From Agromyces sp. H17E-10 (GTDB taxonomy: Bacteria; Actinomycetota; Actinomycetes; Actinomycetales; Microbacteriaceae): 64,000 nucleotides of DNA. The stretch spans positions 1,798,001-1,862,000 of the forward strand of contig NZ_CP095042.1 in NCBI RefSeq assembly GCF_022919715.1, in the 5' to 3' direction. A program made the translations under genes and the position numbers. Positions within the stretch are counted from its first letter, which is position 1; the number at the start of each line of letters is the position of its first letter. Positions 22,417 to 41,621 of the stretch are shown here, in pieces. The notes beneath the pieces are model-generated. The model was not told the DNA's origin. It made no database searches and saw only the letters and a list, made by a program, of their open reading frames with translations.

Positions 22417-22478
22417 GCGAGCGCTGGTCCGACGATCGGCACGACCGCGACCGCGTCGTAGTACAGAAAGCGAATCAT
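22413..22478 (-). CDS. 21-residue coupled mini-ORF
   Basis: A tiny ORF that encodes MIRFLYYDAVAVVPIVGPAL and one more residue. Its ATG forms ATGA with the stop of the 223-residue gene and its TGA forms ATGA with the start of the 89-residue gene. Exact coupling on both sides argues that it is translated. The product is hydrophobic and could insert in the membrane as a small subunit, or the ORF may exist only to pass ribosomes on. It may also be the relic of an N-terminal piece of the 89-residue protein. Confidence 0.5.
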   Translation of the reverse strand: MIRFLYYDAVAVVPIVGPALA

Positions 22479-23146
22479 GGGCTTCGCACTCCCCCATCCG
22501 CGGCGCGGTCGTCGACTTCTGCCGCGCGTGAGATTTCGTCGAGCGCGGCGATGTACTCGGCGGCCCGTGCAACGTGCACACCCAGCCAGTGCCTCCACTC
22601 CATGACGACGATCGATGTCCGGAGGTCGCTGTCGAGGGTCAGGTCGATTGCGCGCTCGGTCGACATCTTCAGGCGAGCAACCCCGGGGGCGACGTCCTTC
22701 ACCTGGCTGAGTTCGATCGAGCAAGCTTCGGCGGGGTGCTGCAGGTCCTCCCAGAAACCGACTCGACCGTCGTCCAACGTGACCGCCATGTAGGGCGGCG
22801 GGTAGGGCCGCTCCGACAGCGCGAACGTCTCGTCGACGGCGTCGAGGAACGCGACGAGCTCCTTCGTTCTCCGAACGAGCAGGGGGCGCGGCGCTCCGGC
22901 TCGCTCGACGGCGTCGACCAGTCGGCGCGCGCGCCATTCGTCTCGGACGACCCGCACGGGCACGAGGAGCACAACACCCGCCAGCCCGATCGCACACGCA
23001 GTCAGGACAAGAGGGATTCCGTCGCCGGAAGGCGAACGCAACAACATCAGGATCTGCGACACGGCGAGCACAAGGAACGGCACGGTCCAAGCCCAGCGAT
23101 GACGCACCCTGGGCGGGAGGTGACCATCACCGCTGAGATTGCCCAT
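22475..23146 (-). CDS. Two-segment membrane protein with C-terminal cytoplasmic domain
   Basis: A 223-residue protein with two hydrophobic segments at about residues 20-35 and 45-65, then a soluble domain (PPYMAVTLDDGRVGFWEDL, ACSIELSQVKDVAPGVARL) and a Trp-rich helix VVMEWRHWLGVHVARAAEY. The plan resembles the divergently transcribed 240-residue protein (GVAFWNGG, FFPWREVRNIRAD), and I suspect they are distant paralogues with a PH-like domain. No known function. The ATG lies six bases after TAGTTT, so the operon is probably leaderless. Confidence 0.7.
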   Translation of the reverse strand: MGNLSGDGHLPPRVRHRWAWTVPFLVLAVSQILMLLRSPSGDGIPLVLTACAIGLAGVVLLVPVRVVRDEWRARRLVDAVERAGAPRPLLVRRTKELVAFLDAVDETFALSERPYPPPYMAVTLDDGRVGFWEDLQHPAEACSIELSQVKDVAPGVARLKMSTERAIDLTLDSDLRTSIVVMEWRHWLGVHVARAAEYIAALDEISRAAEVDDRAADGGVRSP

Positions 23147-23158
23147 GCACCGAAACTA
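23147..23158 (-). promoter_or_regulatory. -10 box for the leaderless membrane-protein operon
   Basis: Minus-strand TAGTTT at 23153-23158 is followed by six bases and the ATG at 23146. The 200 bases beyond, up to the plus-strand mini-ORF at 23358, must hold the divergent promoter, but I see no convincing hexamers there. Confidence 0.5.
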
Positions 23159-23357
23159 GTGGCCTGACGTCGTGCTGATGAGACGTCGACGCCACCGATT
23201 CTCTCCGCCGTCGCACTGAACGTGGAGTCAGGGAAGGGAACCTCACCTCGCCCTTCCGCTCGCGACTCGCGCCACGCTAAGGTCGGAGTCGTTGTGCGCC
23301 ACCCACGCGCGACGACGCGCCGCCCGACGGCGCGCCTCCGCCCCCACGGAGATTCGC

Positions 23358-23435
23358 ATGTCCCGAACGATGACGTCCACCCGTACCGTCGCGCAGCTTC
23401 GCCGCGCCATCGACCTCGCACGAGGCATCCGATGA
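23358..23435 (+). CDS. 25-residue coupled leader ORF
   Basis: A short ORF that encodes MSRTMTSTRTVAQLRRAIDL plus five more residues ending in RGIR. GGAG lies seven bases before its ATG, a better ribosome site than most genes here have. Its TGA overlaps the ATG of the 240-residue membrane protein as ATGA. The peptide is basic, rich in Arg and Thr, and forms a plausible amphipathic helix. It could be a coupling leader or a small protein; nothing identifies its function. Confidence 0.5.
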   Translation: MSRTMTSTRTVAQLRRAIDLARGIR

Positions 23436-24154
23436 ACGAAGCCGCACCCCATCGCACCAAGCTCACCGTGCTCGTCGCACTGTTCGCGGCACTCGTCGTC
23501 GCCGGGCTCGTCGTGGGCGCGGCCCGTGTCGAGGAGGTCGTGCCCCGACTGCCGACCGTGCCCGGTGGCAGGGCGACCCTGGCTGTGATCGCCGTTGCGG
23601 CACTCGTGTGCGCGATCCTGATCCTCGTCCGGCTGGCCCGGGCCGGCCGGTGCCGTGCGCGACGCCGGGCGCTCGAGGCCAGCGTGCGCGGCCAGGTGAG
23701 CTGCGGCATCCGCACCAGCATGCTCGTCAGCGCACTCAACGAGGTGCGCGTCGACGAGCCGCACGCGATCCGTCTCGCGGCCCGCTACTCGATGGTGGCC
23801 GACGAGCTCGGCGTCGCCTTCTGGAACGGCGGCCACCGACCGCGTCGCGCGGTGTTCTTCCCCTGGCGGGAGGTGCGTAACATCCGCGCCGACTCGATGG
23901 TCATCGGCGGCACGCTCGTCTCCGTGCTCGTGCTGCGGGTGCGCCGCGGCGGCACCAGTGCCGAGCTGCCGATCGTGTTCAGCGCTCCGCGCGTCGGCGC
24001 GTACGCACTCGGCGACGCGCCCTTCTACGCGCTCGTGCGCAGCTGGAAGGCGCTGCACCGCGAAGCGCTCAAGGCCGAGGGCATCGAGCCGCCGCCCGTC
24101 ACCGGGGCGATTCCGGTGATCAGGCCGGGGATGGCGTACGCGGGGGCTCGGTAG
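23432..24154 (+). CDS. Two-segment membrane protein with PH-like domain
   Basis: A 240-residue protein with two hydrophobic segments (about residues 10-30 and 48-68), a basic loop (RAGRCRARRRALE) and a soluble C-terminal domain containing ELGVAFWNGGHRPRRAVFFPWREVRNIRAD and SVLVLRVRRGG, strand-rich and PH-like. The longer frame from 23222 is replaced by this ATG, which overlaps the 25-residue leader ORF by ATGA. It lies between hemE and hemA and diverges from a similar protein at 22475, so the pair may share a role, but none is known. Confidence 0.7.
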   Translation: MNEAAPHRTKLTVLVALFAALVVAGLVVGAARVEEVVPRLPTVPGGRATLAVIAVAALVCAILILVRLARAGRCRARRRALEASVRGQVSCGIRTSMLVSALNEVRVDEPHAIRLAARYSMVADELGVAFWNGGHRPRRAVFFPWREVRNIRADSMVIGGTLVSVLVLRVRRGGTSAELPIVFSAPRVGAYALGDAPFYALVRSWKALHREALKAEGIEPPPVTGAIPVIRPGMAYAGAR

Positions 24155-24210
24155 GGGTCTCGATACGCTTCGCTACTCGACCACCGGGGCGCGCGCTACT
24201 CGACCACCGG
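24154..24210. repeat. Dispersed repeat family A, one full and one partial copy
   Basis: The full copy runs 24154-24187, begins GGGGTCTCGATACGCTTCGC and ends ACTCGACCACCGG. A truncated second copy, GCGCTACTCGACCACCGG, follows at 24193-24210. It lies between the 240-residue gene and the hemA promoter. Confidence 0.65.
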
Positions 24211-24251
24211 GGGCTGTTGCGCCCCGAGTCATCCTCGCTTTCGACGGCGGG

Positions 24252-24263
24252 TAGAATCGTCGG
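24252..24263 (+). promoter_or_regulatory. -10 box for leaderless hemA
   Basis: TAGAAT at 24252-24257 is followed by six bases and the hemA GTG. This is among the best -10 boxes in the window. No Shine-Dalgarno sequence fits in the gap. Confidence 0.65.
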
Positions 24264-25682
24264 GTGCTCATCTGCCTGACCGCGAGCCACAAGAACGCCG
24301 CATTCGACACCCTCGAACGGCTTTCGGCGCACGCGGAATCCGCCGCGCCGCGCATCCTCGACCGTCATGACTCGCTCCAGGGCGCGGTCGTCGTCGCGAC
24401 CTGCAACCGCTTCGAGGCCTACCTCGACCTCGACACCGCCGAGGGCGACTCGCCCGTTCCCGCCGTGCACGAGGCGATCCGCGCGGTGGGCGACGCCGCC
24501 GGCCTCGAGCCCGACGAGCTGCGCTCGACGTTCGGCTTCGTGCACGGCAACGCCGTCGCCGGCCACCTCTTCTCCGTCGCATCCGGTCTCGAATCGGTCG
24601 TCGTCGGCGAGGGCGAGATCGCTGGCCAGGTGCGCCGATCGCTCGAGCGCGCCCGTGCCGAGGGCACCACGACTCCCGAGCTCGAGCGCCTCTTCCAGCG
24701 CGCCTCGCAGACCTCGCGCCGGGTGAAGAACGAGACGGGCATCGGCGGCGCCGGCCGCTCGCTCGTGCGCCTCGCGCTCGAACTCGCGTCGAGCCGCGTC
24801 ACTGACTGGTCGGCCGCGCGCGTGCTGCTCGTCGGCACCGGCCAGTACGCCGGCGCGACGCTCGCGGCGCTGCGCGACCGCGGCGCGAACGACGTGCGCG
24901 TCTACTCCCCCTCGGGCCGGGCCGCGAAGTTCGCCCGCAACCACGACATCACCGCCGTCTCCCACGCGGGCTACGCGATCGCCGCGGCGGCCGCCGACGT
25001 CATCATCACCTGCACGACCGCCGAGCACCACGTCGTCGACCGGGTGCTGCTCGAGGGCGGGCGCGCGACGCTCGCCTCCTCCCACTCGGCCCTCGCCGCC
25101 CCTGCGGCGGGCTCCGGGGTGGCCGGCTCAGCGACGACCGAACCGGATGCCTCGGCCACTGCGCCCTCCGACGCCGGCGTGCTCGCCGAGTTCCGTGCCT
25201 GGTGCCCCGTGCCCGAAGCCGCACTGGGCGCCCGCCAGCTCGTGATCGACCTCGGCATGCCGCGCAACGTCGCGACCGACGTCGTCGACGTCGACGGGGT
25301 CGAGCTGCTCGACCTCGAGACGATCCGCCGCCACGCGCCGCTCGAAGAGCTCGGCGCCTCCGACGACGCCCGCGTGCTCATCGAACGTGCGGCCCGCAAC
25401 TTCGGCGCGGTCGGCGAAGAGCTCGACCTGGCCCCCTCGGTCGTCGCGCTCCGCGCGCACGTGCAGGGAGTGCTCGAGGCCGAGATCACCCGCGCCCGGT
25501 CGCGCGGCACGGGCGACGAGGCCGCCGACGAGCGCGTCGAGGCCGCACTTCGGCACATGGCCGGCGTGCTGCTGCACACGCCCATGGTGCGCTCGCGCGA
25601 GTACGCCCGAGCGGGCGACCAGCGCGCGTGGATCGACGGCCTCGAGGCCGTGTTCGGCGTGCGCGCCGACGAGGCGCACTAG
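24264..25682 (+). CDS. hemA: Glutamyl-tRNA reductase
   Basis: The first enzyme of C5 tetrapyrrole synthesis: it reduces the glutamate of Glu-tRNA to the semialdehyde used by HemL. The 472-residue protein has the catalytic cysteine in VVATCNRFEAYLD (Cys47), the specificity segment ESVVVGEGEIAGQVRRSL, the NADPH site VLLVGTGQYAGATLAAL and VIDLGMPRNVATDV. Between residues of about 275 and 310 it carries an Ala/Ser/Gly-rich insertion (SGVAGSATTEPDASATAPS) absent from most homologues. It is the only heme gene on the plus strand and appears leaderless, so its dose can be controlled apart from the rest. Confidence 0.97.
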   Translation: MLICLTASHKNAAFDTLERLSAHAESAAPRILDRHDSLQGAVVVATCNRFEAYLDLDTAEGDSPVPAVHEAIRAVGDAAGLEPDELRSTFGFVHGNAVAGHLFSVASGLESVVVGEGEIAGQVRRSLERARAEGTTTPELERLFQRASQTSRRVKNETGIGGAGRSLVRLALELASSRVTDWSAARVLLVGTGQYAGATLAALRDRGANDVRVYSPSGRAAKFARNHDITAVSHAGYAIAAAAADVIITCTTAEHHVVDRVLLEGGRATLASSHSALAAPAAGSGVAGSATTEPDASATAPSDAGVLAEFRAWCPVPEAALGARQLVIDLGMPRNVATDVVDVDGVELLDLETIRRHAPLEELGASDDARVLIERAARNFGAVGEELDLAPSVVALRAHVQGVLEAEITRARSRGTGDEAADERVEAALRHMAGVLLHTPMVRSREYARAGDQRAWIDGLEAVFGVRADEAH

Positions 25683-28526: not shown

Positions 28527-29180
28527 ATGAACGCGTCGACCGCTTCGGACACGCCTGCACTCGCCGTGCCGTTCGACATCGGCAGCGTCGAGGCCGATCC
28601 GCCGCAGACCGACCGCCTCATCCTGCGCCCGATCCGCGCCGACGACAGCGACGACATCTGGGAGTACCAGCGCCTGCCGGAGGTGCTGCGGTACATCCCC
28701 TGGCCCCGGCGCACGCGCGAGGAGGCGCACGACCACACCCTCAGACGCGCCGAGCGTCGGCGCCTCGCCGAGGATGGCGACGCCACGCACTTCGCCCTGG
28801 TGCTGCGCGGCGAACCCTCGGTCGGAGGCGGCGCCGAACCGGCGGCACCCGGTCGCGATCGCGTCATCGGGGATGTGATGATGCGCGTCACGAGCGTCGA
28901 GTGGGCGCAGATCGAGCTCGGCTGGGCACTGCACCCCGACTTCCAGGGGCGCGGTCTCGCCTACGAGGGCACCGCACGCGTGCTGCGCTTCACGTTCGAG
29001 ACCCTCCGCGCCCACCGCGTGCACGCGAGCCTCGACGTGCGCAACACGGCGTCGGCCGCTCTCTGCGAGCGTCTGGGCATGCGTCACGAGGGCACGCTCC
29101 TGGAGGACGAGTACGACGACGGCTGGCAGGACAGCGCAATGTACGCCATCCTCCGCCGCGAGTGGGAGGGACGCGGCTGA
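28527..29180 (+). CDS. GNAT acetyltransferase, RimJ/RimL type (paralogue of the gene at 40881)
   Basis: A 217-residue GNAT enzyme with TDRLILRPIRADDSDDIWEY, the CoA-loop region WALHPDFQGRGLAYEGTARV (Q/RxxGxG) and LDVRNTASAALCERLGMRHEG. It shares long identical runs (VWEYQRLPEVLRYIPWP-type; LDVRNTASAALC) with the protein at 40881-41621, so the two are recent paralogues. The first 28 residues are poorly conserved. Substrate unknown; proteins of this type often acetylate ribosomal or small-molecule amines. Confidence 0.88.
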   Translation: MNASTASDTPALAVPFDIGSVEADPPQTDRLILRPIRADDSDDIWEYQRLPEVLRYIPWPRRTREEAHDHTLRRAERRRLAEDGDATHFALVLRGEPSVGGGAEPAAPGRDRVIGDVMMRVTSVEWAQIELGWALHPDFQGRGLAYEGTARVLRFTFETLRAHRVHASLDVRNTASAALCERLGMRHEGTLLEDEYDDGWQDSAMYAILRREWEGRG

Positions 29181-29980: not shown

Positions 29981-32900
29981 TCACTCGGTGCCGAAGAAGT
30001 CGAGCTCGCCGATGGCCGCCCAGGGCTGGCCGTTGTGCGAGCTGAGCGCGACGACCTTCACGTAGCGGCCCTCGGCCGGCTGCGCGAACATGACCGCCTG
30101 GGCACCGCCGGTCGCGGCGAGCGTGCCCGCGGCGACCGGGTCACCCCAGGCCTCGCCGTCGGCGCTCACGTACACCTCGAACTGCTTGATGCGGCCGTTG
30201 GGCTCGGTGCCCGGTCGCTGCTGGATCGAGATGCCCCGCAGTTCGTTCGCCTCGCCGAGGTCGACCGTGAGGTGGTGCGGGAAGGCGGGCGACCCGCCGA
30301 GCCACTGCGTGTGCCAGTAGGTCGCGGTGTCGCCGTCGATGGCGTTGGCGGCCGCGCCGTCCTCGCCCTCGATCTCCTCCGAGTCGACGTCGGCCACCGT
30401 CATGCCCTCCTTGGGCAGCGGGGTCGGCGCCGCCTGGCGGGTGCCCCAGACGTTGAGCTCGCCGGCGCCGGCGAAGGCCGCACCGTTGATCGCGTTGAGG
30501 CCCACGAGCTTCACGTAGCGGGCGCTCGTCGCGGGCAGTGCGAGGTGCTGCACGTCGGTCGTCGACGCGAACGCGCCCTGCTTCACCGGGGTGCCCCAGT
30601 TCACGCCGTCGCTCGAGAGGTAGAGCTCGTAGTCCTTGATCGACCCGTTGCCGCGGCGCACTTGGTAGTCGAACCCGTCGACGTTGTAGGTGTCGCCGAG
30701 GTCGAGCGCGATCCAGTGCGGGTAGGGCGTGTCGGGGTTCACCTGCGACCAGGCCGAGTGCCACATCGTCGCCGTGTTGCCGTCGATCGCCGCACCGGCG
30801 CTGCCGTCGCCGGTGCCCGGCTCGGCGTCGCTCACGCCCGCGATCGACAGGCGCGACTGCGGGATGAGGCCGGCGGGCAGGGTCGGCACGCTCGTGGATG
30901 CCTCGACCGTGCGCTCACCGCCCGTGACCGTGTACGCGGCCGACGCCGACACCGGGTAGCGCCCGGGCTCGAGGCCGGCCGGCGCGGTCACCCGCCAGGT
31001 GGTCTTGACCGTGGCGCCAGGCGCGACGGAGGCGAACTCGGCCGCGCTCGACGCCTTCGCCGTCCAGCCTTCGGGCACCTCGATCGAGGTCGACACCGCG
31101 GTCGCGGCCTCGGCCTCGTGGTTGGTGAACGAGGTCGTGAAGGCGTTGGCCTCGCCGGGCACGAGACCCGACGGCCCGACCACGTCGAGCTTGGCGCACG
31201 CGGCCGCCTCGGTGCTCTCGCCGAGGTCGACGATGCGCACGTCGTCGACGATGAGGTCGGCGCCGGTGCCGCCGACGGCGTTGCGACGCACCCCCACGTA
31301 CGGGGTGCCGCATGTCGCGCCGTCGAACTCGTACGAGAACTCGGCCGTCGAGAGCTGCTCGCCGAAGGGCGTCGACGTGAGCTCGACGGGCTTCGAGGCA
31401 TCGCCGGTCGACTGGTCGACCCCCGAGACGAACGAGTACGCCCCGGCGACACCACTCTGGTAGTCGAACGTCACCCGGTAGCGGTGCCCAGCTTCGAACG
31501 GAACGGTGTACTCCGACGTGCGGTACACGAGCCCGCGGTTCTCCTCGTGCGCCATGAGCGAGTAGTCGCCGCCGAGCACCATGTCGAACTTGCGACCGTT
31601 CCAGCCCTGTTGGGTGAAGGGCTCGTTGCGCTTGGCGATGTGGGTGCGCGGGTCGGTCGTGCCGCCGGCGTCGCCCTTGAAGAACGGGCCCCAGCCCTGG
31701 TCGACCTGCTCGAAGTCCTCGTCGACGAGGACCCGTTCACCGTCGCCGGCGGGGCCGGCCGTCGGGTCGTCGGTCGCGACGACGCGCACGTTGTCGACCC
31801 GCACCGTCGCGTCGCCGTCGGCGGCCGAGACCGTGAGCGTCGGACGCGCGCCGTCGGCGGGGACGGTGATGTAGGTGCGGACGCGCTGGAGGTTGGTGCC
31901 GCTCCACTCGTCGGCCGCGACCGCGTTGCGGATGGTTGAGCGCTCGACGGTCGTCGAGGAGCCCTCGCCACCCGGCACCTCGACCGAGATCGTGGTCTCG
32001 CGGGCGGCACCGTCGGCGATGCCGAGGTCGGCCGACACCGCGTACGTGCCGGGCTCGAGCTCGCCGAGTCGCTGGCTGATCGACGCAGCACCGGCACCGA
32101 GCACGGCCGCGCGCCGGCCCAGGTCGTCGCGTTCGACGCTCGCGGCGCCCGTCGCGTTCCAGCCCTCGAGGTCGGCGGCGTTGAAGCCGGGGTCGACGAC
32201 CGGGGTGCCCTGGCCGAAGGAGACCTTCTTCGGCAGCGTCGTGGCGCCCGTCGCCTTCTTGCCGGGCACGAGCACGTAGGCCTGGCCGGCCTGGGCGTCG
32301 ATGGTGACGGCGCCGCCCGTCACGGGCAGGTCGGCGACCTTCGTGCGGCCCTCGTCACCGAGCGCGAAGAGCTGCAGCGACGCGGCATCCGCGAAGCCGT
32401 CGGTGAGCTGCCAGGTGGTCTGGCCGCCCGCCGGGTTGAGGTGGTAGAGCTTGTCGGCGGTCTTGCCCGCCTTCGACGACCACGGCAGCAGGTAGGTACC
32501 GCCGCGCAGCACCTCGGTGCCGTCGACGGTGATGGTGCGGTCGGCGGCCGTCGTGCCGGTGACGCTCACGCCGTCCTCGAGGTCGATGCGCTCGGGAGTC
32601 CAGCGCATGATCTCGTGATGCTGCAGGAACTTCGCGGGCACGTTCGCCGTCCACACGTTCTCGAGGAACGCCGGGAAGTCGTTCTGCCCGGTCCAGCCCT
32701 CGAACTCGACGATGTGGCTCGTGCCGAGCTTGACGTCGGGGTTCCAGACGTCGGCCTCCGTGTTGTTGACGAAGCGCAGGATCTGCGAGTTCACGCCCTT
32801 GTTGGAGGAGCCGCCGTAGTTCTCGTCGTTCGCCCAGTGCGACCACGTGTTGTTCTCGGCGAGCTTGTCGGCCCACTCCGACCCGACGCGGAACCCGTGC

Positions 32901-34348
32901 TTCACGAGCGAGTCCTGCAGGGTCTGCGCGAGCCAGCCGTGCTCGTAGTAGACGTCGATGTATGCGAAGTCGAGGTTGTCGTCGGTCGCGTCGGCCAGTT
33001 CGCCGATGCGCTTGTCGAGCTCGCCCGAGACCCGGTCGTAGCGCTGATCGATGTAGTACGACTGGTCGAGCCAGTTCCAGCCCTTCGAGTTCTCGTTCGC
33101 GATCTCGTCGCTGAACGAGTTCGCCTCGGGGTAGATCTCGGTGGCGTTCATGTGCACGCCGAACGAGGCGTTCCACTTCTTGCCGGCCTTGACGGCCTCG
33201 TTGAGCTCGTCGAGTCCGCCGGCGCGTTCGTTGAAGTTGTCGCCGTAGTCGGTGTTCGCCGAGTCGTGACCCTCACTCGTGTAGCCCTTCAGCATCGCGA
33301 CCTGACCGAGGCCGTCGGTGTTGAGCGCGATGCGCTTGACGTCGTCGAGCGTGCGCAGGAACGGGTGCGTCGCCTGCGAGGCGAAGTTGAACGGGATGTG
33401 CGTGATCACGTTCTCGGGAGTCTGGTCGCCCTTGTTCGGGGCGACGCGGATGCCGCGCATCGCGATCGCGCCGTCCTGCCAGTCGACGACGTCGTCGCCG
33501 TTGGCGTCGGGCGTGATCGCGACCTTGACCCACGGCAGCTCCTCGGTCGCGTCCGAACCCTGGGCGCGGTAGAGCCACGGGCCCGAGGCGATGCCGACCT
33601 CGACGCCGCCGTCGGCGGCGACGGCCTGGCGCCAGAAGTTGCCCGCATCCTTCTGCGAGGGCCCTGACGAGGTGTCGTAGAGGGCGTTCGTCGCGAACGC
33701 CGCGGCGAGCTCGCCGGTGTTGGCGATGATCGCGTTCGAGCCCTTCGGCGCGGCATCGAGGGGCGTCGACGCCGTCACGGGGATGAAGACGTCGCCCGAG
33801 GCCCCGCGGTCGACCGACAGGTTCGCCGCGGCGACTGCGGCTCCCGCCTCGCCCGACGAGACCGTGACGAGCCGGTGGTCGGGGATCTGCAGCGTCTTCA
33901 CGACGCCATCGGGGTCGGTGATCTTCGTCACGCGGATCGTGACGACGTTGTGCTTCACCGAGAGCTGCGCCTCGATCGAGACACCGGCGAGCGCGGTCGG
34001 CGTGAGCACGTACAGCGCCTCGCCGTCGTCGAGGCGCGAGGCGACCTCGACGGGCTCGGCCTTGCCGTTGATCGTGATCGACGAGATCGTCGCGTCGTTG
34101 CCGTGCATCGTCGCGCCCGAGTCGCGGTCGGTGTACGCAACGACCTGCGGGAAGCCCGCCGACGCGGTCACCCGGAGGTCGCGGCTCTGCAGGGCGAACG
34201 TCTCGCCCGCGGCGGCGACCGCGAACCCGTCGGGCACGAGCGGTGCGGCGTGCACCGGCATCGCGCCGAGCGGGGCGATCACGCCGCCCGCGATGGCGCA
34301 TCCCAGTCCGAGTCGCCAGAGGCGACCCGGGGGTCGTGATGAAGGCAT
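29981..34348 (-). CDS. Secreted endo-alpha-N-acetylgalactosaminidase, GH101
   Basis: A 1455-residue extracellular enzyme that should release Gal-beta-1,3-GalNAc (core 1) from Ser/Thr of mucin-type glycoproteins. Residues 1-34 are a signal peptide (cleavage after VHA). Then come an N-terminal beta-sandwich (about 40-330), the catalytic barrel with NLDFAYIDVYYEHGW (nucleophile Asp465) and RVGSEWADKL (acid/base Glu491), beta domains, GH101-typical HEENRGLVYRTSEYTVPF, a NEW3-like segment (about 1040-1140) and two F5/8-type carbohydrate-binding domains (about 1160-1300 and 1313-1455). It has no cell-wall sorting signal. ATG 34348 has GGAG six bases upstream, which decides the start. It is the last gene of the operon. 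Confidence 0.9.
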   Translation of the reverse strand: MPSSRPPGRLWRLGLGCAIAGGVIAPLGAMPVHAAPLVPDGFAVAAAGETFALQSRDLRVTASAGFPQVVAYTDRDSGATMHGNDATISSITINGKAEPVEVASRLDDGEALYVLTPTALAGVSIEAQLSVKHNVVTIRVTKITDPDGVVKTLQIPDHRLVTVSSGEAGAAVAAANLSVDRGASGDVFIPVTASTPLDAAPKGSNAIIANTGELAAAFATNALYDTSSGPSQKDAGNFWRQAVAADGGVEVGIASGPWLYRAQGSDATEELPWVKVAITPDANGDDVVDWQDGAIAMRGIRVAPNKGDQTPENVITHIPFNFASQATHPFLRTLDDVKRIALNTDGLGQVAMLKGYTSEGHDSANTDYGDNFNERAGGLDELNEAVKAGKKWNASFGVHMNATEIYPEANSFSDEIANENSKGWNWLDQSYYIDQRYDRVSGELDKRIGELADATDDNLDFAYIDVYYEHGWLAQTLQDSLVKHGFRVGSEWADKLAENNTWSHWANDENYGGSSNKGVNSQILRFVNNTEADVWNPDVKLGTSHIVEFEGWTGQNDFPAFLENVWTANVPAKFLQHHEIMRWTPERIDLEDGVSVTGTTAADRTITVDGTEVLRGGTYLLPWSSKAGKTADKLYHLNPAGGQTTWQLTDGFADAASLQLFALGDEGRTKVADLPVTGGAVTIDAQAGQAYVLVPGKKATGATTLPKKVSFGQGTPVVDPGFNAADLEGWNATGAASVERDDLGRRAAVLGAGAASISQRLGELEPGTYAVSADLGIADGAARETTISVEVPGGEGSSTTVERSTIRNAVAADEWSGTNLQRVRTYITVPADGARPTLTVSAADGDATVRVDNVRVVATDDPTAGPAGDGERVLVDEDFEQVDQGWGPFFKGDAGGTTDPRTHIAKRNEPFTQQGWNGRKFDMVLGGDYSLMAHEENRGLVYRTSEYTVPFEAGHRYRVTFDYQSGVAGAYSFVSGVDQSTGDASKPVELTSTPFGEQLSTAEFSYEFDGATCGTPYVGVRRNAVGGTGADLIVDDVRIVDLGESTEAAACAKLDVVGPSGLVPGEANAFTTSFTNHEAEAATAVSTSIEVPEGWTAKASSAAEFASVAPGATVKTTWRVTAPAGLEPGRYPVSASAAYTVTGGERTVEASTSVPTLPAGLIPQSRLSIAGVSDAEPGTGDGSAGAAIDGNTATMWHSAWSQVNPDTPYPHWIALDLGDTYNVDGFDYQVRRGNGSIKDYELYLSSDGVNWGTPVKQGAFASTTDVQHLALPATSARYVKLVGLNAINGAAFAGAGELNVWGTRQAAPTPLPKEGMTVADVDSEEIEGEDGAAANAIDGDTATYWHTQWLGGSPAFPHHLTVDLGEANELRGISIQQRPGTEPNGRIKQFEVYVSADGEAWGDPVAAGTLAATGGAQAVMFAQPAEGRYVKVVALSSHNGQPWAAIGELDFFGTE

Positions 34349-34363
34349 CTTCGTCTCCATTCC

Positions 34364-34380
34364 CGCGTCGTGTCGACGCG
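34364..34380. other. Intercistronic hairpin before GH101
   Basis: CGCGTCG-tgt-CGACGCG, a perfect seven-base inverted repeat, lies 16 bases before the GH101 start. It may tune ribosome access or RNA processing between GH35 and GH101. Confidence 0.35.
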
Positions 34381-34392
34381 TCCACATCGACC

Positions 34393-34407
34393 TGCGCCGA
34401 CGGCGCA
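34393..34407. other. Intercistronic hairpin after GH35
   Basis: TGCGCC-gac-GGCGCA lies two bases past the GH35 stop. With the hairpin at 34364 it fills most of the 61-base gap between the two glycosidase genes. Confidence 0.35.
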
Positions 34408-34409
34408 GC

Positions 34410-36218
34410 TCAGTCGAAGGTCTCGATGTACTCCTGCTCGGGGCCGAGCTCCGCGTGCTCGCGCAGCTCGACGACGTCGCCGAGGCGCTCGAGCTCGAGC
34501 ACCGCGATCGTGTTCTCACCGGCCCGCAGCAGCGGCGCCGGAACGTAGTAGGTCTGCTGCGGCCCGATCTCCCAGTACCGGCCGAGCAGGAACCCGTTCA
34601 CCCACACGAACCCCTTGCCGAAGCCGGGGAAGGCGAGGAACGCGTCGGCCGGCTCGTCGACCGTCAGCGTCGCCGTGGCGAGCCCGTCGAGGTCTCGCTC
34701 GCTCCACTCGTCGAGCGGCAGCGCCCGCGCCGTCCAGCGCTGCACGAGGCGACGGTCGAGCTGCACCCCGCCGAGGATGCCCTTGCCCTCGCCGAGCAAC
34801 GGCCCGTAGTTGATGCGGCCCTGGTTCTCGACGACGATCTCGAGCACGACGGCCCGGCCCTCGCCCGCGAGCCGCACGCCGGCCAGAGCCTGTTCTGCAT
34901 CGAGCACCGCGACGCGCTCACCGTCGACGAACACGAGCGCTCGGTCGCGCAGCCCCCGGATGGTGAGGAGCGCACCCCCCGTCGGCACGATCGGCCGCGC
35001 CTCGTAGAGCACGAGGCCCGCGTCGAGCCCGAGCTCCTCGAAGGTCGGCGGGGTCGCTGCGCGAACGGGCTCGCCCGCCGCGCGCAGCACGTCGAGCAGG
35101 TCGCGGCCGGGCCGGACGGGCAACGTCGCAGCCGGCAGCACGGGCGGGGTCGGGGATGCCGCGGGCGGCGTCTGCCCCGTGGCATCCTGCAGCACGTCGC
35201 GGATGCGACGGAACTTCTCGGTGATCGCGCCGTTCTCGGCGATCGGGGCGTGCGAGTCGTAGCTCGTCTGGGTCGGCTGCAGGCGCACGCCGTCGTGGTT
35301 CGCCCCCGACCAGAGCCCGAAGTTCGTGCCGCCGTGCGCCATGTAGAGGCTCAGCGACCCGTCCTCGGCGACGATGTCGGCGACCACACCGGCCGCCCCC
35401 TCGGGCGTGCGCACGTGGTGCGGGTCGCCCCAGTGGTCGAACCAGCCGTTCCAGAGCTCGGCGCACATGAACGGCTCGCCCGAGCGGCGCTCGCGCAGCA
35501 TCGACGCGGCCTGCGCGGCGCGCGAGCCGAACGTCGCGGTCGCGACGACGCCCGGCACGCTGCCGCCGTCCTGCATGAGCTCGGTCGGGCCGTCGGCCGT
35601 GTAGACGAGCTCGGTGACCCCGCCCGCGACGAGGCGGTCGTGCAGCCAGGCGAGGTAGTCGGCGTCGTCGCCGTAGCTGCCGAACTCGTTCTCGAGCTGC
35701 ACGGCGACGATCGGTCCGCCGTGGGCCGCCTGGAGCGGCACGAGCCGCGGCAGCAGCTCGTCGAACCAGGTGCCGACGGCGTCGAGGTAGGCCGGGTCGC
35801 TCGACCGCAGGCGCAGCCCGGGGGTGCCCGAGAGCCAGGCCGGGAACCCGCCGTTGTCCCACTCGGCGCAGATGTACGGGCCCGGCCGCACGATCGCGTC
35901 GAGGCCGACCTCGGCGGCGAGCGCGAGGAAGCCCTCGAGGTCGCGCCAGCCGGTGAAGTCGATCTCGCCCCGGCGACGCTCGTGGAAGTTCCACGCGACG
36001 TAGGTGTCGACGGTGTTGAGCCCGAGCGCGAGCATGCGCTCGAGCCGGTCGCGCCACTGCGCCGGGTGCACGCGGAAGTAGTGCAGCGACCCCGAGAGGA
36101 TGCGATGCGGGCGGCCCTGGCGCAGGAACGCGCCGTCGGCGACGGTGAGGACGGGTCGGGGATGCGACGGCGCCGGCCCCGAGGCATCCGGACGCGTCGT
36201 CGTCGTGTACCCGGTCAC
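34410..36218 (-). CDS. Cytoplasmic beta-galactosidase, GH35
   Basis: A 602-residue GH35 enzyme without signal peptide. The hallmark segments are ILSGSLHYFRVHPAQWRDRL, TVDTYVAWNFHE, IVRPGPYICAEWDNGGFPAWL, the acid/base in VQLENEFGSYG (Glu178) and the nucleophile in CAELWNGWFDHWG (Glu254), then MAHGGTNFGLWSGA and a C-terminal jelly-roll region ending WEIGPQQTYYVP. Related bacterial enzymes (BgaC type) prefer beta-1,3-linked galactose, so hydrolysis of imported Gal-beta-1,3-GalNAc is the likely job. The GTG start overlaps the permease stop as GTGA. Confidence 0.94.
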   Translation of the reverse strand: MTGYTTTTRPDASGPAPSHPRPVLTVADGAFLRQGRPHRILSGSLHYFRVHPAQWRDRLERMLALGLNTVDTYVAWNFHERRRGEIDFTGWRDLEGFLALAAEVGLDAIVRPGPYICAEWDNGGFPAWLSGTPGLRLRSSDPAYLDAVGTWFDELLPRLVPLQAAHGGPIVAVQLENEFGSYGDDADYLAWLHDRLVAGGVTELVYTADGPTELMQDGGSVPGVVATATFGSRAAQAASMLRERRSGEPFMCAELWNGWFDHWGDPHHVRTPEGAAGVVADIVAEDGSLSLYMAHGGTNFGLWSGANHDGVRLQPTQTSYDSHAPIAENGAITEKFRRIRDVLQDATGQTPPAASPTPPVLPAATLPVRPGRDLLDVLRAAGEPVRAATPPTFEELGLDAGLVLYEARPIVPTGGALLTIRGLRDRALVFVDGERVAVLDAEQALAGVRLAGEGRAVVLEIVVENQGRINYGPLLGEGKGILGGVQLDRRLVQRWTARALPLDEWSERDLDGLATATLTVDEPADAFLAFPGFGKGFVWVNGFLLGRYWEIGPQQTYYVPAPLLRAGENTIAVLELERLGDVVELREHAELGPEQEYIETFD

Positions 36219-37129
36219 TTCACGGCCCCCGCGGTCAGGCCCGCACGCCAGAAGCGCTGCAGGCTGAGGAACGCGATGATGAGCGGAACGACCGAGAGCA
36301 GCGCGGCGACCACGACGGTGCCGGCAGGCACCTGCCCGTTGCTGCCCGCCCAGCCGACGAGGCCGACCGTCACGGGCTGCAGCGAGCTGTCGTTGAGCAC
36401 CATGAGCGGCAGCAGGAAGTTGTTCCAGACCTCGACGAACTGGAACAGGAAGATCGTCACGAGCGCGGGCGACATGATGCGCACACCGATCGAGAAGAAG
36501 ATGCGGAACTCCCCCGCGCCGTCGATGCGGCCCGCCTCGATGAGCTCGTCGGGCACCGACTGGGCCGCGAACACGCGGGCGAGGTAGACGCCGAACGGGC
36601 TCACGACGCTCGGCAGCAGCACCGCGAGCGGGTTGTTCAAGAGGCCCACCTGGTTGAAGAGCAGGAACAGCGGCAGCGTGAACATGACCTTCGGGATGAG
36701 CACGGCCGCGAGGATGACGCCGAACACGACGCCCCGGCCGCGGAACTCGTACTTCGCGAGCGCGTACCCGGCCATGGCCGAGAGCAGCGTGCCGACGAGC
36801 GCAGACGTGCCCGCGTAGAAGACGCTGTTGAGCATCCACCGGCCGAAGATGCCGTCGGACTCGGCGAACACGAGCGCGATGTTGTCGAACAGCCCGAAGC
36901 CGTCGAACCAGAGGCCGGGCTCGGAGAACTGGTGCCCGGCGGGCTTCGTCGACGCGACGACGAGCCACCAGATGGGCACGATGAAGTAGAGGGCCGACAG
37001 GCCGAGCAGGGCGAAGACGCCCAGGCGGCTCGCGAGGTTCGCCTCGCGCCGCGAACGGCGTGGGCGCGCGGCATCCGGCCGGTCCGACCGGGGCGGCCGC
37101 TCGGCCGACACGAGGGTGGGGGCGCTCAT
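36215..37129 (-). CDS. ABC sugar transporter permease, MalG type
   Basis: A 304-residue inner-membrane permease of the carbohydrate-uptake type 1 family with six membrane segments after a charged N-terminus. The EAA loop that docks the ATPase reads VPDELIEAGRIDGAGEFRIFF. It starts with ATG in an ATGA overlap with the MalF-type gene, and its stop overlaps GH35. No ATPase gene lies in the locus; actinobacterial sugar importers commonly share one MsiK-type ATPase encoded elsewhere, which is probably the case here. Confidence 0.93.
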   Translation of the reverse strand: MSAPTLVSAERPPRSDRPDAARPRRSRREANLASRLGVFALLGLSALYFIVPIWWLVVASTKPAGHQFSEPGLWFDGFGLFDNIALVFAESDGIFGRWMLNSVFYAGTSALVGTLLSAMAGYALAKYEFRGRGVVFGVILAAVLIPKVMFTLPLFLLFNQVGLLNNPLAVLLPSVVSPFGVYLARVFAAQSVPDELIEAGRIDGAGEFRIFFSIGVRIMSPALVTIFLFQFVEVWNNFLLPLMVLNDSSLQPVTVGLVGWAGSNGQVPAGTVVVAALLSVVPLIIAFLSLQRFWRAGLTAGAVK

Positions 37130-38127
37130 CGCTCGCCTCGATTCATGAGCTTGAAGAACGTGAACGAGAGCACGCCGACGATGAGGGCGAGCACGACCGA
37201 CTGCGCCGCCGCGTACGTATAGTTCTGCGCGGTGACCTGCGCCTGCGCGGCCATGAGCGGCGTGAAGGTGTTGCTGATCGCGCCGCCCGAGATGGTCTGC
37301 AGCACCTTGGGCTCGTTGTAGAGCTGGGCCGAGCCGATGATCGAGAAGACGGCGGTGAGCACGATCGCCGGGCGCACCATGGGGATCTTGATGTTCCACG
37401 CGATGCGCCACGGGCCGGCGCCGTCGAGGCGCGCCGCCTCGATGGTCTCGGCCGGGATCGTCTGCAGCGACGAGTAGATGATCAGCATGTTGTAGCCCGT
37501 CCAGCCCCAGGTCACGATGTTCGCGACGGCCCACAGCACGATCTCGGGTGCGAAGAAGGGGATGCCGGTACCCACGACCCGCTCGAGCAGCGTGTTGATC
37601 GGGCTCGTCACGGGCGAGTAGAGGAACGACCACATGACCGCGGCGATGACGCCGGGCACGGCGTAGGGCAGGAACGCGGAGAGGCGGAAGAAGCCCTTGC
37701 CCCGTGCCGACCGCGAGTCGAGCAGCAGGGCGAGGCCGAGCGCGAGGCCGAGCATCACGGGCACCTGCACGAGGCCGAAGAGGCCCACGCGGCCGAGCGA
37801 GGCCATGAAGTCGGCGTCGCCGAAGAGGCGCACGTAGTTCGCGAGCGGCGTGAACTCGAGGGTGGGCGCCTCGAGGCCGAGCCCCGAGCGCTGCAGGGTG
37901 AACAGGCTCTGCACGAACGCGAAGACGATCGGCACGAGGTACATCGCGACGAAGAGCACGCCGAACGGCAGCAGGAAGAGCAGCGGGATGCGCCAGCGGC
38001 CGCCGCCGCGGCGCGAGGCGCGGCCGCCGGGGGCCGGAGCGTCGGGCCCGGGGCGGCCGACGCCGCCCGAGCGCCCGGGGCGCGCGGTGTCGGCGGCGGT
38101 GACCGCGCGAGTCGATGAGGTGAGCAT
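37126..38127 (-). CDS. ABC sugar transporter permease, MalF type
   Basis: A 333-residue permease with a disordered Gly/Arg/Pro-rich N-terminus (about 45 residues) and six membrane segments. The EAA loop is IPAETIEAARLDGAGPWRIAWNIKIP. It pairs with the MalG-type permease downstream. A 146-base gap separates it from the binding-protein gene, and a strong hairpin in that gap should lower expression relative to the binding protein, as is usual in these operons. Confidence 0.93.
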   Translation of the reverse strand: MLTSSTRAVTAADTARPGRSGGVGRPGPDAPAPGGRASRRGGGRWRIPLLFLLPFGVLFVAMYLVPIVFAFVQSLFTLQRSGLGLEAPTLEFTPLANYVRLFGDADFMASLGRVGLFGLVQVPVMLGLALGLALLLDSRSARGKGFFRLSAFLPYAVPGVIAAVMWSFLYSPVTSPINTLLERVVGTGIPFFAPEIVLWAVANIVTWGWTGYNMLIIYSSLQTIPAETIEAARLDGAGPWRIAWNIKIPMVRPAIVLTAVFSIIGSAQLYNEPKVLQTISGGAISNTFTPLMAAQAQVTAQNYTYAAAQSVVLALIVGVLSFTFFKLMNRGER

Positions 38128-38217
38128 GTCGTCCTGCGTGGGTGTGGTGCGTGGGTGGGGTGCTGTGCGGATCGCGGCGCCTGCGGCTGCGGCTGCGCCG
38201 CGAGCGTCTCGGGGTGC

Positions 38218-38250
38218 GGACCGGGGCGGGATCCTCGCCCGCCCCGGTCC
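38218..38250 (-). terminator. Hairpin between binding protein and permease genes (attenuator)
   Basis: Arms GGACCGGGGCGGG (38218-38230) and CCCGCCCCGGTCC (38238-38250) pair perfectly over 13 bases around a seven-base loop. Its place 23 bases past the binding-protein stop fits partial termination or 3-prime protection, so that more binding protein than permease is made. Confidence 0.65.
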
Positions 38251-38273
38251 GGGTCTCGCGGGGCTGCTCCGAG

Positions 38274-39560
38274 CTACTCCGAGACGGAGAGGCCCTGGGC
38301 CTCGAGGGCGTCGACGGTCTGCTGCTGGGTGCTCTTCAGCGCGTCGGCGAAGGTGCCCTGCTTCGACCAGGCCTTGCCCAGGCCGTCGTCGAGGAAGCCA
38401 ACGGTCTCGGGCATGTTCGGGCCCCAGGTCCAGCCGGTGGTGACGTTCGGCGAGGCCTCGGCGAACACGTCGAAGATGACCTGGTCGCCGAAGTACGGGT
38501 CGGGCTCGGTGAGCGCCGGCAGGTCGAGCAGGTCGGTCGCCGCCGGGTAGAGCGCGGCGGCCTCGATGAGGCCCGTGTAGATGTCGGGGTCGGTGCTCAT
38601 GGCGTGCGCGAACGTCCATGCCGCCTCGGGGTTGTCGCAGCCCTTCAGCACGGCCGTGGCCGAGCCGCCGACGTTGCCGACCTTGTTCTCGCCGGCCTCC
38701 CACTGCGGCATCGGGGCGACGGCCCACTTGCCGGCGCCGTCGGGGGCGCTTCCCTTCAGGATGCCCGCGATCCACACCGCGCCGACGTGCGTCGCGATCG
38801 AGCCGTCACCGAGGCCGGTGTACCAGGACTGGTCCCACATGGGGGCCTGGCTGATGAGGCCGGCGTCGGTGAGACCCTGCCAGTAGTCGGCGACCTTCTG
38901 GCCCTCGGGCGAGTCGATCGAGACGTCCCAGCTGTCGCCGTCGACCGAGAACCACGGGGCCTCGGCCTGCCAGTCGAAGCCGGCGTAGTCGTAGTTGAGG
39001 TAGCTCGCCGAGAGCGACTTGCCGGCGGCCTTGAGCTTCTCGCCGGCGGCCTGGTACTCGGCCCAGGTCGTCGGCACGGCGATGCCGAGCTGGTCGAACA
39101 CCTCCTTGTTGTAGAAGAGCGCCATCGGGCCCTGGTCGACGGGTGCGCCGTAGACGGCGTCGCCGATCGAGACGGCCGACCACGTGGCCGGGGTGAACTC
39201 GTCCTCGTTCGCGTTCGCGAACTCGGAGACGTCTTCGAGGGCGCCCTGGGCCGCGAAGCTCGTGAGGGTCTCGTAGCCGACCTGCGCGAGGCACGGGGCG
39301 TTGCCCGCCGTCACGGCGTTGAGCATCTTGTCGTAGCCGCCCTTGGCGCCGGGCGCGACCTCTTCGTACTTCACGACCACGTCGCCCTGCGACGCGTTGA
39401 ACGCGTCGACGGCGTCGGCGTAGCCCGGGGCCCAGCCCCAGAACGTGACCTCGGCCGGGCCGGATGCCTCGGGCTGCGCGGCCCCGGCACAGCCGGCGAG
39501 CGCCAGGCCGATGCCGATCGCGCCGGTGATGCCCACCGTGCGCATGACTGTCTTCTTCAC
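38274..39560 (-). CDS. Lipoprotein sugar-binding protein of the ABC importer
   Basis: A 428-residue extracytoplasmic binding protein (family 1, MalE-like). The signal peptide ends in the lipobox LALAGCAG, so Cys is lipidated and the protein is tethered outside. Typical segments are EVTFWGWAPGYADAVDAFN, YDKMLNAVTAGNAPCLAQVG and APVDQGPMALFYNKEVFDQL; several Trp residues (TGWTWGPNMPE) suggest stacking on sugar rings. The likely ligand is Gal-beta-1,3-GalNAc, inferred from the GH101 and GH35 neighbours. The GTG start at 39560 has AAAGGAG upstream. It is the first gene of the operon. Confidence 0.94.
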   Translation of the reverse strand: MKKTVMRTVGITGAIGIGLALAGCAGAAQPEASGPAEVTFWGWAPGYADAVDAFNASQGDVVVKYEEVAPGAKGGYDKMLNAVTAGNAPCLAQVGYETLTSFAAQGALEDVSEFANANEDEFTPATWSAVSIGDAVYGAPVDQGPMALFYNKEVFDQLGIAVPTTWAEYQAAGEKLKAAGKSLSASYLNYDYAGFDWQAEAPWFSVDGDSWDVSIDSPEGQKVADYWQGLTDAGLISQAPMWDQSWYTGLGDGSIATHVGAVWIAGILKGSAPDGAGKWAVAPMPQWEAGENKVGNVGGSATAVLKGCDNPEAAWTFAHAMSTDPDIYTGLIEAAALYPAATDLLDLPALTEPDPYFGDQVIFDVFAEASPNVTTGWTWGPNMPETVGFLDDGLGKAWSKQGTFADALKSTQQQTVDALEAQGLSVSE

Positions 39561-39665
39561 TGCTGCCTCTCCTTTGAATGAGCTCGGAATGCGTCGTGCA
39601 ACGAACCGGGCCCGCGCGGTCTCGGGTGCGGGTTCCGCGGGGCGTGCTCCCGATGGTGCCACAAG

Positions 39666-39681
39666 TTGTTATCGATAACAA
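39666..39681. promoter_or_regulatory. LacI-type operator between the repressor and the glycan-use operon
   Basis: TTGTTATCGATAACAA is a perfect 16-base palindrome with a central CG, the classic form of a LacI-family operator. It lies 105 bases before the binding-protein GTG and 111 bases before the repressor ATG. TTGTTA on the minus strand could also act as the -35 element of the operon. Its AT-richness stands out in this genome. Confidence 0.75.
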
Positions 39682-39792
39682 GCACGGAATCCTGACGAAT
39701 GGATGCCGCATCCGGCCGCCTCGCAGGGTTAGCATGTTTTCGCTAGCATGACGATGGTGCATGCTGCAGGGGCAATGGCGAAGGGGCATGAG

Positions 39793-40830
39793 ATGAGCAC
39801 GACCCGGCGACTCGACGCGAACGGACGCACGCGCACGCCGAGCATGGCCGACGTCGCCGCCCACGCCGGGGTCTCGGCCCAGACGGTGTCGCGCGTGCTG
39901 AGCGGGCACCCCAACGTGCAGCCCGCCACGCGCGACCGCGTGCTCACCTCGGTCGAGCAGCTCGGCTACCGCATGAACAACGCCGCGCGCTCGCTCTCGT
40001 CGGGCCGCACGCGCACGATCGGCGTCGTCGTGCTGCCGACCGTCGACTACTCGGGCTCGGCCGTCACGCACGGCGTCGAGTCGGCCGCCCGCCGGGCCGG
40101 CTACGCCGTCAACATCTCGACCGCGAGCTCCCCCGACCCCGCCGCGATCGCCGCCGCGATGACCAGGCTCGACCGGCAGTCGGTCGAGGGCATCGTGCTC
40201 GTCGTGCCCGTGCCGACCGGCACCGACGAGGTCGAGACGATCGCCCGTCGCATCCCGACCGTCACCATCGACGGCTCGCGCACGATGTCGAGCGAGGTCG
40301 TCGCGATCGACCAGTTCGAGGTCGGCCGGCTCGCGACCGAGCACCTGCTCGGGCTCGGCCACCCGACCGTGTGGCACGTCGCCGGCCCCGACGAATGGCT
40401 CGACTCCACCGGTCGCGCGGCGGGCTGGCGTGCCGCGCTCGAGGCCGCCGGGCGCGAGGTGCCGCCGCTCCTGCACGGCGACTGGTCGCCCGAGTCGGGC
40501 TACCAGGCGGGGCTCCTGCTCGGCCGCATCCCCGAAGCCACAGCCGTGTTCGTCGCGAGCGACGAGATGGCGTTCGGCGTGATCCGCGCGCTGCACGAGC
40601 TCGGCCGCCGCGTGCCCGAGGACCTCTCGGTCGTCGGCGTCGACGACATCGCCCTCGCCGCGTACTGCAGCCCCGCGCTCACGACCGTCGCCCAGCCGTT
40701 CGGCGACATCGCCGCCCTCGCGGTCGAGCACCTGCTGCGGCGCATCGACGACCCGAGCGCGCCGCCCGCGTCGACCGAGGTCGCCGCCGAGCTCGTGATC
40801 CGGTCGAGCACGGCGGCCTACGCGGGCTGA
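39793..40830 (+). CDS. LacI-family repressor of the glycan-use operon
   Basis: A 345-residue regulator. The headpiece is SMADVAAHAGVSAQTVSRVLSGHPNV, followed by the hinge LGYRMNNAARSLSSGRTRTIGV and a periplasmic-binding-protein-like effector domain (IVLVVPVPTGTDE, WHVAGPDEWLDSTGRAAGWRAAL, LSVVGVDDIALAAYCSPALTTVAQP). It is divergent from the ABC/GH operon, with the 16-bp palindrome between, so it should sense an imported sugar. The start ATG 39793 has AAGGGG eight bases upstream; two upstream in-frame ATGs lack a site. Confidence 0.94.
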   Translation: MSTTRRLDANGRTRTPSMADVAAHAGVSAQTVSRVLSGHPNVQPATRDRVLTSVEQLGYRMNNAARSLSSGRTRTIGVVVLPTVDYSGSAVTHGVESAARRAGYAVNISTASSPDPAAIAAAMTRLDRQSVEGIVLVVPVPTGTDEVETIARRIPTVTIDGSRTMSSEVVAIDQFEVGRLATEHLLGLGHPTVWHVAGPDEWLDSTGRAAGWRAALEAAGREVPPLLHGDWSPESGYQAGLLLGRIPEATAVFVASDEMAFGVIRALHELGRRVPEDLSVVGVDDIALAAYCSPALTTVAQPFGDIAALAVEHLLRRIDDPSAPPASTEVAAELVIRSSTAAYAG

Positions 40831-40880: not shown

Positions 40881-41621
40881 TCAGCCCCGAGGCATCCATT
40901 CGCGCCGCAGGATCGCGTAGAGCTCGCTGTCCTGCCAGCCGTCGTCCTCGAGGATCTCCTCGAGCATCGTGCCCTCGAGGCGCATCCCGAGCCGTCGGCA
41001 GAGCGCCGCCGATGCCGTGTTGCGCACGTCGAGGTGGGCGAACACCCGGTGCGCGCCGATCACCTCGAACGCGAAGCGCAGCACCTCGGCGGCCGCCTCG
41101 TGCGCGAGCCCGCGCCCCTGGAACGCCGGGTGCAGCACCCAGCCGATCTCGACCTGCGCGCTGTCGATGCTGCCCACGCGCAGCATGACGTCGCCCACGA
41201 CGCGATCACGACGGGCGGATGCCTCGGGGCCGGCGCCGTCCGCACCGCTCGACGCGCGCCCGCCGCGCTTGCCGGGGCCGCCCATCGCGACCGACGGCTC
41301 GCCGTGCAGCACCATCGCGAAGTGCGTCGCGTCGCCGTCGGCGGCGAGCACGCGCATGCCGGCCCGCTTGAGCGTGTGCACGTGCGCGTCCTCGCGGCTG
41401 CGCGCCGGCCACGGGATGTAGCGCAGCACCTCGGGCAGGCGCTGGTACTCCCAGACGTCGTCGCTGTCGTCGGGCGCGATCGGGCGCAGCGTCATGCGCG
41501 CGGTCTCGAGCGGGGCATCCTCGATCGACGCGATGTCGAACGGGAACGCGGCGCCCGAAGCACGCGGTGCAGTCCCCGACCCGACCGGGCCGCCCGGCCC
41601 GGCGGCGCCGGCCGCGCCCAC
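40881..41621 (-). CDS. GNAT acetyltransferase, RimJ/RimL type (paralogue of the gene at 28527)
   Basis: A GNAT enzyme of about 246 residues with ETARMTLRPIAPDDSDDVWE, WVLHPAFQGRGLAHEAAAEV (CoA loop) and LDVRNTASAALCRRLGMRLEG. It has a Gly/Pro/Ala-rich N-terminus and an inserted Gly/Arg-rich stretch (GKRGGRASSGADGAGPEASA) near residue 115 that its paralogue lacks. The GTG start lies four bases after the glyS stop, so it is probably cotranscribed with glyS; no good ribosome site is visible and the true start may be further in. Confidence 0.82.
   Translation of the reverse strand: MGAAGAAGPGGPVGSGTAPRASGAAFPFDIASIEDAPLETARMTLRPIAPDDSDDVWEYQRLPEVLRYIPWPARSREDAHVHTLKRAGMRVLAADGDATHFAMVLHGEPSVAMGGPGKRGGRASSGADGAGPEASARRDRVVGDVMLRVGSIDSAQVEIGWVLHPAFQGRGLAHEAAAEVLRFAFEVIGAHRVFAHLDVRNTASAALCRRLGMRLEGTMLEEILEDDGWQDSELYAILRREWMPRG

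Follow-up and report, generated by a model that had tools for sequence, protein, structure and literature searches.

The 64,000-nucleotide window analyzed here comes from the single-contig, 4.25-Mb genome of Agromyces sp. H17E-10, and it probably contains a LacI-controlled operon for the use of mucin-type core-1 O-glycans, in which galacto-N-biose (GNB) would be imported by an ATP-binding cassette (ABC) transporter and hydrolyzed by a GH35 enzyme. On the reverse strand, a gene for a lipoprotein solute-binding protein (SBP) predicted to bind GNB (38274..39560; PF01547, 110 bits; lipobox LAGC) is followed by two ABC sugar permease genes, MalF-like (37126..38127) and MalG-like (36215..37129) by position, both with PF00528. 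The MalG-like gene overlaps by 4 bp the start of a gene for a BgaC-like GH35 beta-galactosidase without signal peptide (34410..36218), and the last gene encodes a predicted secreted GH101 endo-alpha-N-acetylgalactosaminidase of 1459 amino acids (29981..34360). Since the gaps from the SBP gene through to the GH101 gene are 146, -4, -4, and 49 bp, these genes fit one operon. A LacI-family regulator (PF00356 and PF13377) is encoded divergently on the forward strand (39793..40830, the frame being open from 39748), and a perfect 16-bp palindrome at 39666..39681, between the LacI and SBP genes, is a predicted LacI-family operator. The locus contains no ATPase gene, and no search was aimed at one. 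The family scans against Pfam or NCBIfam covered 31 different proteins of the window out of a larger set of open reading frames.

The GH101 product matched the catalytic domain PF12905 at 379 bits against a cut-off of 25. It also contained PF18080, PF17451, PF17974, and PF10633 and, in its C-terminal part, two F5/8C (CBM32-like) domains (PF00754). NF040533, a model of the full-length SpGH101, remained below its cut-off (505 versus 2900). The N terminus was signal-peptide-like by hydropathy, and the C terminus was the end of an F5/8C domain, with no anchor there. According to an alignment to the solved chain 2zxq, D469 and E495 are in the family motifs (numbered from METKMP; they are D465 and E491 when counted from the second Met), and we take them to be the Asp nucleophile and the Glu acid/base. 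W428 and W430, in a loop aligned to 2zxq, are presumably the stacking tryptophans. The catalytic pair and both tryptophans were invariant across 10 aligned GH101s. An initial annotation had listed a signal-peptide GH101 with D465/E491 and two F5/8 domains, GH35, two permeases, a lipoprotein SBP, and a divergent LacI; Pfam, alignment, and hydropathy confirmed this content, and the catalytic pair was kept in the homologues as that annotation expected. In EngBF (2ZXQ), GNB is stacked upon by two tryptophans (PMC8106489). This GH101 shared 41 and 40% identity with the GH101s of two loci (L024 and L025) of a different family within the order, and a few GH101 enzymes accept core 3, core 2, or sialylated core 1 (PMC11861894). 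It could be, then, that the enzyme has drifted to another substrate, such as core 3, GalNAc-Ser, or a bacterial O-glycan (GalNAc, N-acetylgalactosamine). We consider this highly improbable given the invariance of the catalytic pair and of W428/W430 and the presence downstream of a beta-1,3-type galactosidase, which fits core 1.

The GH35 protein was over the cut-off for PF01301 (369 bits), and its N terminus had no hydrophobic stretch. Its closest solved match was 4mad (506 bits; runner-up, 418), which we take to be BgaC of Bacillus circulans. We further take 4e8c to be the pneumococcal BgaC, with W240, W243, and Y455 as its beta-1,3 specificity residues. The equivalents of all three were kept in the alignment to 4e8c; they are also kept in 8fa5, and the residues are therefore not diagnostic of beta-1,3 specificity. 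The Glu of the E-x-W-x-G-W motif aligned with 4mad and, by chain numbering, would equal E233. BgaC with its nucleophile E233 exchanged has been turned into a beta-3-galactosynthase (PMC9027921).

We next consider how these genes are distributed. A search of 60 genus members found GH101 in 11, one of them being the present strain. Other genes were then followed in 33 of the 60 genomes, namely all 11 GH101-positive ones and 22 of the 49 negative ones, chosen mostly for more complete assemblies. The six-gene order (LacI, SBP, two permeases, GH35, and GH101) was kept in five other Agromyces (L018-L022), whose LacI proteins were 89-97% identical, and, at 50-65% identity, in three Oerskovia (L063, L064, and L081) and one Isoptericola (L067), so that the synteny proposed for related genomes was indeed found. 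Another Isoptericola (L069) had LacI-GH35-GH101 without the transporter. In four Agromyces (G052, G020, G043, and G033), the module LacI-SBP-MalF-like permease-MalG-like permease-GH35 was located away from GH101 (L140-L143 versus L023, L015, L017, and L016). An SBP orthologue (73-100% identity) was found in 10 of the 11 GH101-positive Agromyces and in none of the 22 GH101-negative ones, whose best match reached 46% (Fisher p = 1.2e-7, with kinship ignored).

The palindrome was the single site of its kind in the 4.25-Mb genome at up to 3 mismatches. Over 25 Agromyces stretches fetched around these loci (480 kb, with the window excluded), the sites at up to 3 mismatches numbered 14, and each preceded GH101, SBP, or LacI by 14-155 bp. 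A separate shuffle control, preserving only single-base composition, gave 0 sites. Each of the four genomes with a split arrangement had the operator at both the module and GH101; their genome-wide sites numbered 5 (G020), 3 (G033), 3 (G043), and 2 (G052). In the Oerskovia and Isoptericola loci (L063, L064, L067, L069, and L081), a site with 2-3 mismatches was located between LacI and the operon. A site with up to 3 mismatches stood directly upstream of GH101 in 11 of 92 rows, or 8 without three duplicate loci: four split Agromyces, two Microbacterium, and two Arthrobacter. Sites at 0-1 mismatch occurred in 7 of the 11 GH101-positive and 0 of the 22 GH101-negative Agromyces. Conservation and position thus support the palindrome as the predicted LacI operator, to which LacI would bind and from which an inducer would release it.

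GH112 was not found in any of the 11 GH101-positive Agromyces, and the same search was positive in G062 and G095 and negative in G079, three controls from a different family of the order. On this search of the 11 genomes, we rejected a GH112 hidden elsewhere. The initial annotation had read the locus as one for core-1 glycans with GH35 in the place of GH112, and synteny, co-occurrence, the shared operator, and the lack of a GH112 match all favor that proposal.

No GalNAc-processing gene turned up among the 31 window proteins scanned, consistent with what had been stated before. The locus was, however, not complete as claimed, since the predicted GalNAc module is located 1.2 Mb from the operon (L136). 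It comprises genes for SIS, ROK, PfkB, aldolase, DeoR, and NagA proteins and is divergent from another ABC transporter. The SIS query matched this genome at 54%; the gene, which takes the place of AgaS in a GalNAc-like cluster, lies at L136:9483-10340 (C1, about 3065.5-3066.3 kb), and a Nocardioides counterpart lies at L073:14741-15622. Given the SIS gene and its cluster, we rejected the view that the GalNAc step is missing. GH101 is followed by genes for SIS, a ROK kinase, PfkB, and a class II aldolase in L067 (Isoptericola) and L073 (Nocardioides), the second of which also has a DeoR/AgaR-like gene. SIS, ROK, PfkB, aldolase, and DeoR occurred together in 11 of 11 GH101-positive Agromyces; the search for NagA was confined to the own genome. 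The deacetylase scored 236 against a cut-off of 225.65 for TIGR00221, a model that cannot separate NagA from AgaA, and was the only one over the cut-off in this genome. A galK gene was present as well. A NagB-like gene, just under its cut-off (233.6 versus 236.9 bits), was 8 kb from NagA, and a stretch of about 32 kb held the NagB-like gene, NagA, and galK. With these genes so close together, NagA may serve both amino sugars.

For a broader view, we used 80 named GH101 loci, the best 80 of 263 genome stretches encoding a GH101 relative. All of these best 80 were actinobacterial. GH101 had initially been described as best known from gut Bifidobacterium and pathogens, a picture to be widened by its being common in actinobacterial genomes. 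A soil Streptomyces was reportedly an early source of a purified endo-GalNAc-ase activity. Genes for SIS, ROK, and PfkB were in the GH101 flank at 15 of the 80 loci, mostly from Arthrobacter and Paenarthrobacter, and three of them had GH35 too. In a GH101 tree made by a quick method, with long branches flagged, the GH35-linked loci were spread over several branches, a pattern that could stem from either repeated joining or repeated splitting. No GH35, SBP, or SIS was found in the flank for 53 of 84 tree rows, within the limits of the script; these were mostly Streptomyces and Kribbella. One record named Streptomyces sp. SID13031 (L054) fell among Kribbella, possibly a mislabelled genome or a transfer. 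Two Microbacterium GH101 loci, L031 (7047-9788 and 17281-18564) and L057 (6445-9702 and 17019-20555), had NAGLU (GH89), alpha-L-fucosidase (GH29), and GH95 genes in their flanks and are perhaps parts of a wider host-glycan cluster.

Several observations weigh against a core-1 operon, and we gather them in this and the following two paragraphs. A GH35 match was within the fetched flank at 16 of the 80 loci, including a weak one (L100, Streptomyces, a partial match of 44% where the locus ends), and all six genes were present at 7 of the 80, three of these seven being Agromyces already counted; both counts are lower bounds because many fetched flanks were short. One GH101-positive Agromyces (G036) had no orthologous transporter/GH35 module and only 4-mismatch sites upstream of GH101. 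This genome carries a different SBP-permease-permease set with GH35 (54%) and LacI (51%), about 6 kb from the GalNAc cluster (L151:3033-9231), and no operator-like site with up to 4 mismatches was found at that set. GH101-negative genomes also hold operator-like sites with 2-3 mismatches, as expected because the palindrome is of the general LacI type. The own genome had no PF13088 sialidase over the cut-off, which might put sialylated glycans beyond the reach of the strain; such sialidases were over the cut-off in 3 of the 11 GH101-positive and in 0 of the 12 GH101-negative genomes searched.

The SBP is the next point. Its best phmmer match was 2z8d, the GNB/lacto-N-biose (LNB) binder GL-BP of Bifidobacterium (173 bits), with 6h0h and 6q5g at 171-172 bits; we take these two chains to be the beta-1,6-galactobiose binder Bal6GBP. 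A profile of 11 SBPs ranked 6q5g and 6h0h first (232.8 and 232.5 bits) over GL-BP, which came third (227.5 bits). Bal6GBP and GL-BP bind the galactosyl unit in a conserved way at subsite 1, and Trp63 of the former is Arg49 in the latter, an exchange that goes along with the difference at position 2 (PMC8106489). Provided that the signal peptide is included in the number 63, no more than two Trp in the printed chain of Bal6GBP qualify, and the present SBP has Trp at both candidate positions (W42 and W44), as do all 11 SBPs. Because Trp is kept at the presumed place of the Arg of GL-BP, we did not file the SBP as a GL-BP; the prediction covers binding of the galactose (Gal) half and does not extend to the second sugar. 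The profile ranking and the kept Trp would suit a module that imports plant or microbial beta-galactosides, such as beta-1,3- or beta-1,6-galactobiose from arabinogalactan, with GH101 coregulated for a similar disaccharide or another alpha-GalNAc glycan; a beta-1,3-galactosidase could also accept beta-1,3-galactobiose. However, the SBP orthologues follow the presence of GH101, the operator is common to the module and GH101 even when the two are unlinked, and this transporter is missing from Microbacterium, Janibacter, and Nocardioides loci in which GH35 does accompany GH101. We thus regard import of galactobiose as an unlikely explanation.

The last group of points concerns the GalNAc cluster. 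The SIS gene was also found in 16 of the 22 GH101-negative Agromyces, in one case at 42% identity, and its association with GH101 within the genus was weak (p = 0.08). The SIS protein is not a canonical AgaS (TIGR02815, 23.8 versus 529 bits), no search for another AgaS in the genome having been made, and that of Nocardioides did not match the AgaS model; these proteins are candidates for a new type of galactosamine-6-phosphate deaminase. The cluster might serve other amino sugars (GlcNAc or galactosamine), with GH101 and GH35 supplying only galactose or access to protein. Besides the occurrence of SIS in GH101-negative genomes, the NagB-like gene near the sole NagA over the cut-off speaks for this, as that NagA may serve GlcNAc. 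On the other side, PfkB and a class II aldolase are not required by the NagB route and are required downstream of tagatose-6-phosphate. The SIS-ROK-PfkB genes in GH101 flanks, directly after GH101 in L067 and L073, and the alternative set near the cluster in G036 also argue for a link to GalNAc, and a role in other amino sugars has, in our judgment, a slim chance of being the right account. The core-1 reading is weakest on two points, namely which second sugar the SBP accepts and what the SIS deaminase is.

Outside the operon, two similar GNAT acetyltransferase genes flank it (window positions 28527-29180 and 40881-41621), and both queries matched one and the same nearby GNAT gene in each of 5 syntenic loci. 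The left part of the window (3714-9701 and 20869-25682) carries haem synthesis genes, for porphobilinogen synthase, HemD, a chlorite-dismutase-family (HemQ-like) protein, hemE, and glutamyl-tRNA reductase.

In the core-1 pathway that we propose, the secreted GH101 would clip the core disaccharide off animal-type glycoproteins. The lipoprotein SBP and the two permeases, with an ATPase that is not part of the locus, would import it intact, and the cytoplasmic GH35, instead of a GH112 phosphorylase, would split it into Gal and GalNAc. Gal would enter metabolism via galactokinase, whose gene was found. GalNAc would pass through the unlinked cluster by the putative activities of the ROK kinase, NagA-type deacetylase, SIS deaminase/isomerase, PfkB tagatose-6-phosphate kinase, and class II aldolase, beside which a DeoR/AgaR-like regulator is encoded. 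LacI would repress through the palindrome until an inducer appears.

If so, animal-derived O-glycoproteins (e.g., invertebrate and unsialylated) would be an underrated environmental carbon source. The literature on O-glycan foraging that we found concerns gut bacteria or pathogens, and the loci described here would offer a testable whole pathway and regulon in other actinobacteria. They would also supply a candidate for a galactosamine-6-phosphate deaminase other than AgaS, together with new O-glycanases and perhaps new GNB-binding proteins, and the operator at split loci could be a handle for finding the regulon in other genomes.

We lean toward viewing this as a third route for core 1 in probably free-living actinobacteria of several families, with secreted GH101, ABC import of unphosphorylated GNB, cytoplasmic GH35, a non-AgaS SIS galactosamine-6-phosphate deaminase, and a dedicated LacI regulon for release, import, and hydrolysis that holds together even where the genes are divided among distant loci. 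The initial annotation had taken GH35 in the place of GH112 for a hydrolytic variant of the pathway and the combination in this lineage for little described. We found no description of the pathway in this lineage among titles and abstract openings, most subscription papers being outside this scope, and an operon combining ABC genes, GH35, and GH101 was not described in the accessible parts of PMC6109692, PMC5018945, PMC5583593, PMC11992087, PMC12345172, PMC8106489, PMC11861894, PMC7674204, PMC9027921, and PMC6265309. The hydrolytic variant has a precedent in principle, since GH35 hydrolysis of GNB is known from GnbG of Lactobacillus casei (PMC6109692).

The GNB/LNB pathway of Bifidobacterium consists of the GH101 EngBF, GltABC with GL-BP, a GH112 phosphorylase, and NahK/GalT/GalE. 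Extracellular GH101, ABC import of the intact disaccharide, and a related SBP are common to it and the pathway proposed for Agromyces (PMC6109692, PMC8106489). In Agromyces, unlike Bifidobacterium, GH35 would take the place of GH112, GH101 is inside the transport operon, and GalNAc is probably metabolized via a 6-phosphate/tagatose route. The gnb operon of L. casei encodes a phosphotransferase system (PTS-Gnb), the GH35 GnbG, GnbE, and GnbF, and shares with the proposed Agromyces pathway an intracellular GH35 beta-1,3-galactosidase acting on GNB and a route by deacetylase and isomerizing deaminase (PMC6109692). GnbG hydrolyzes GNB probably as the phosphate (PMC6109692), and both GnbPTS with GnbG and LnbABC with the phosphorylase LnbP are described for GNB (PMC5583593). 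L. casei differs in that PTS import gives a phosphorylated disaccharide and GNB must come from release by other microbes. The aga operon of Streptococcus pneumoniae (bgaC GH35, PTS, agaS, and galM) likewise clusters GH35 with sugar uptake and GalNAc genes, but has a PTS and a GntR-type AgaR instead of ABC genes and LacI, and a named AgaS; the pneumococcal BgaC is called surface exposed (PMC5018945). The PTS import of these gnb/aga-type pathways was not seen at the Agromyces operon, which encodes an SBP and two ABC permeases, no genome-wide PTS search having been made. The BT4240-50 polysaccharide utilization locus of Bacteroides thetaiotaomicron shares with the proposed pathway binding of the core-1 disaccharide, a beta-1,3-galactosidase, and GalNAc metabolism, but uses SusCD-type uptake and a GH2 galactosidase in a genome without GH101 (PMC11992087). 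Intracellular GH35 hydrolysis of GNB is thus already known, with PTS import; the parts of the Agromyces system are familiar singly, and their combination is unlike the gut-bacterial versions that we found described.

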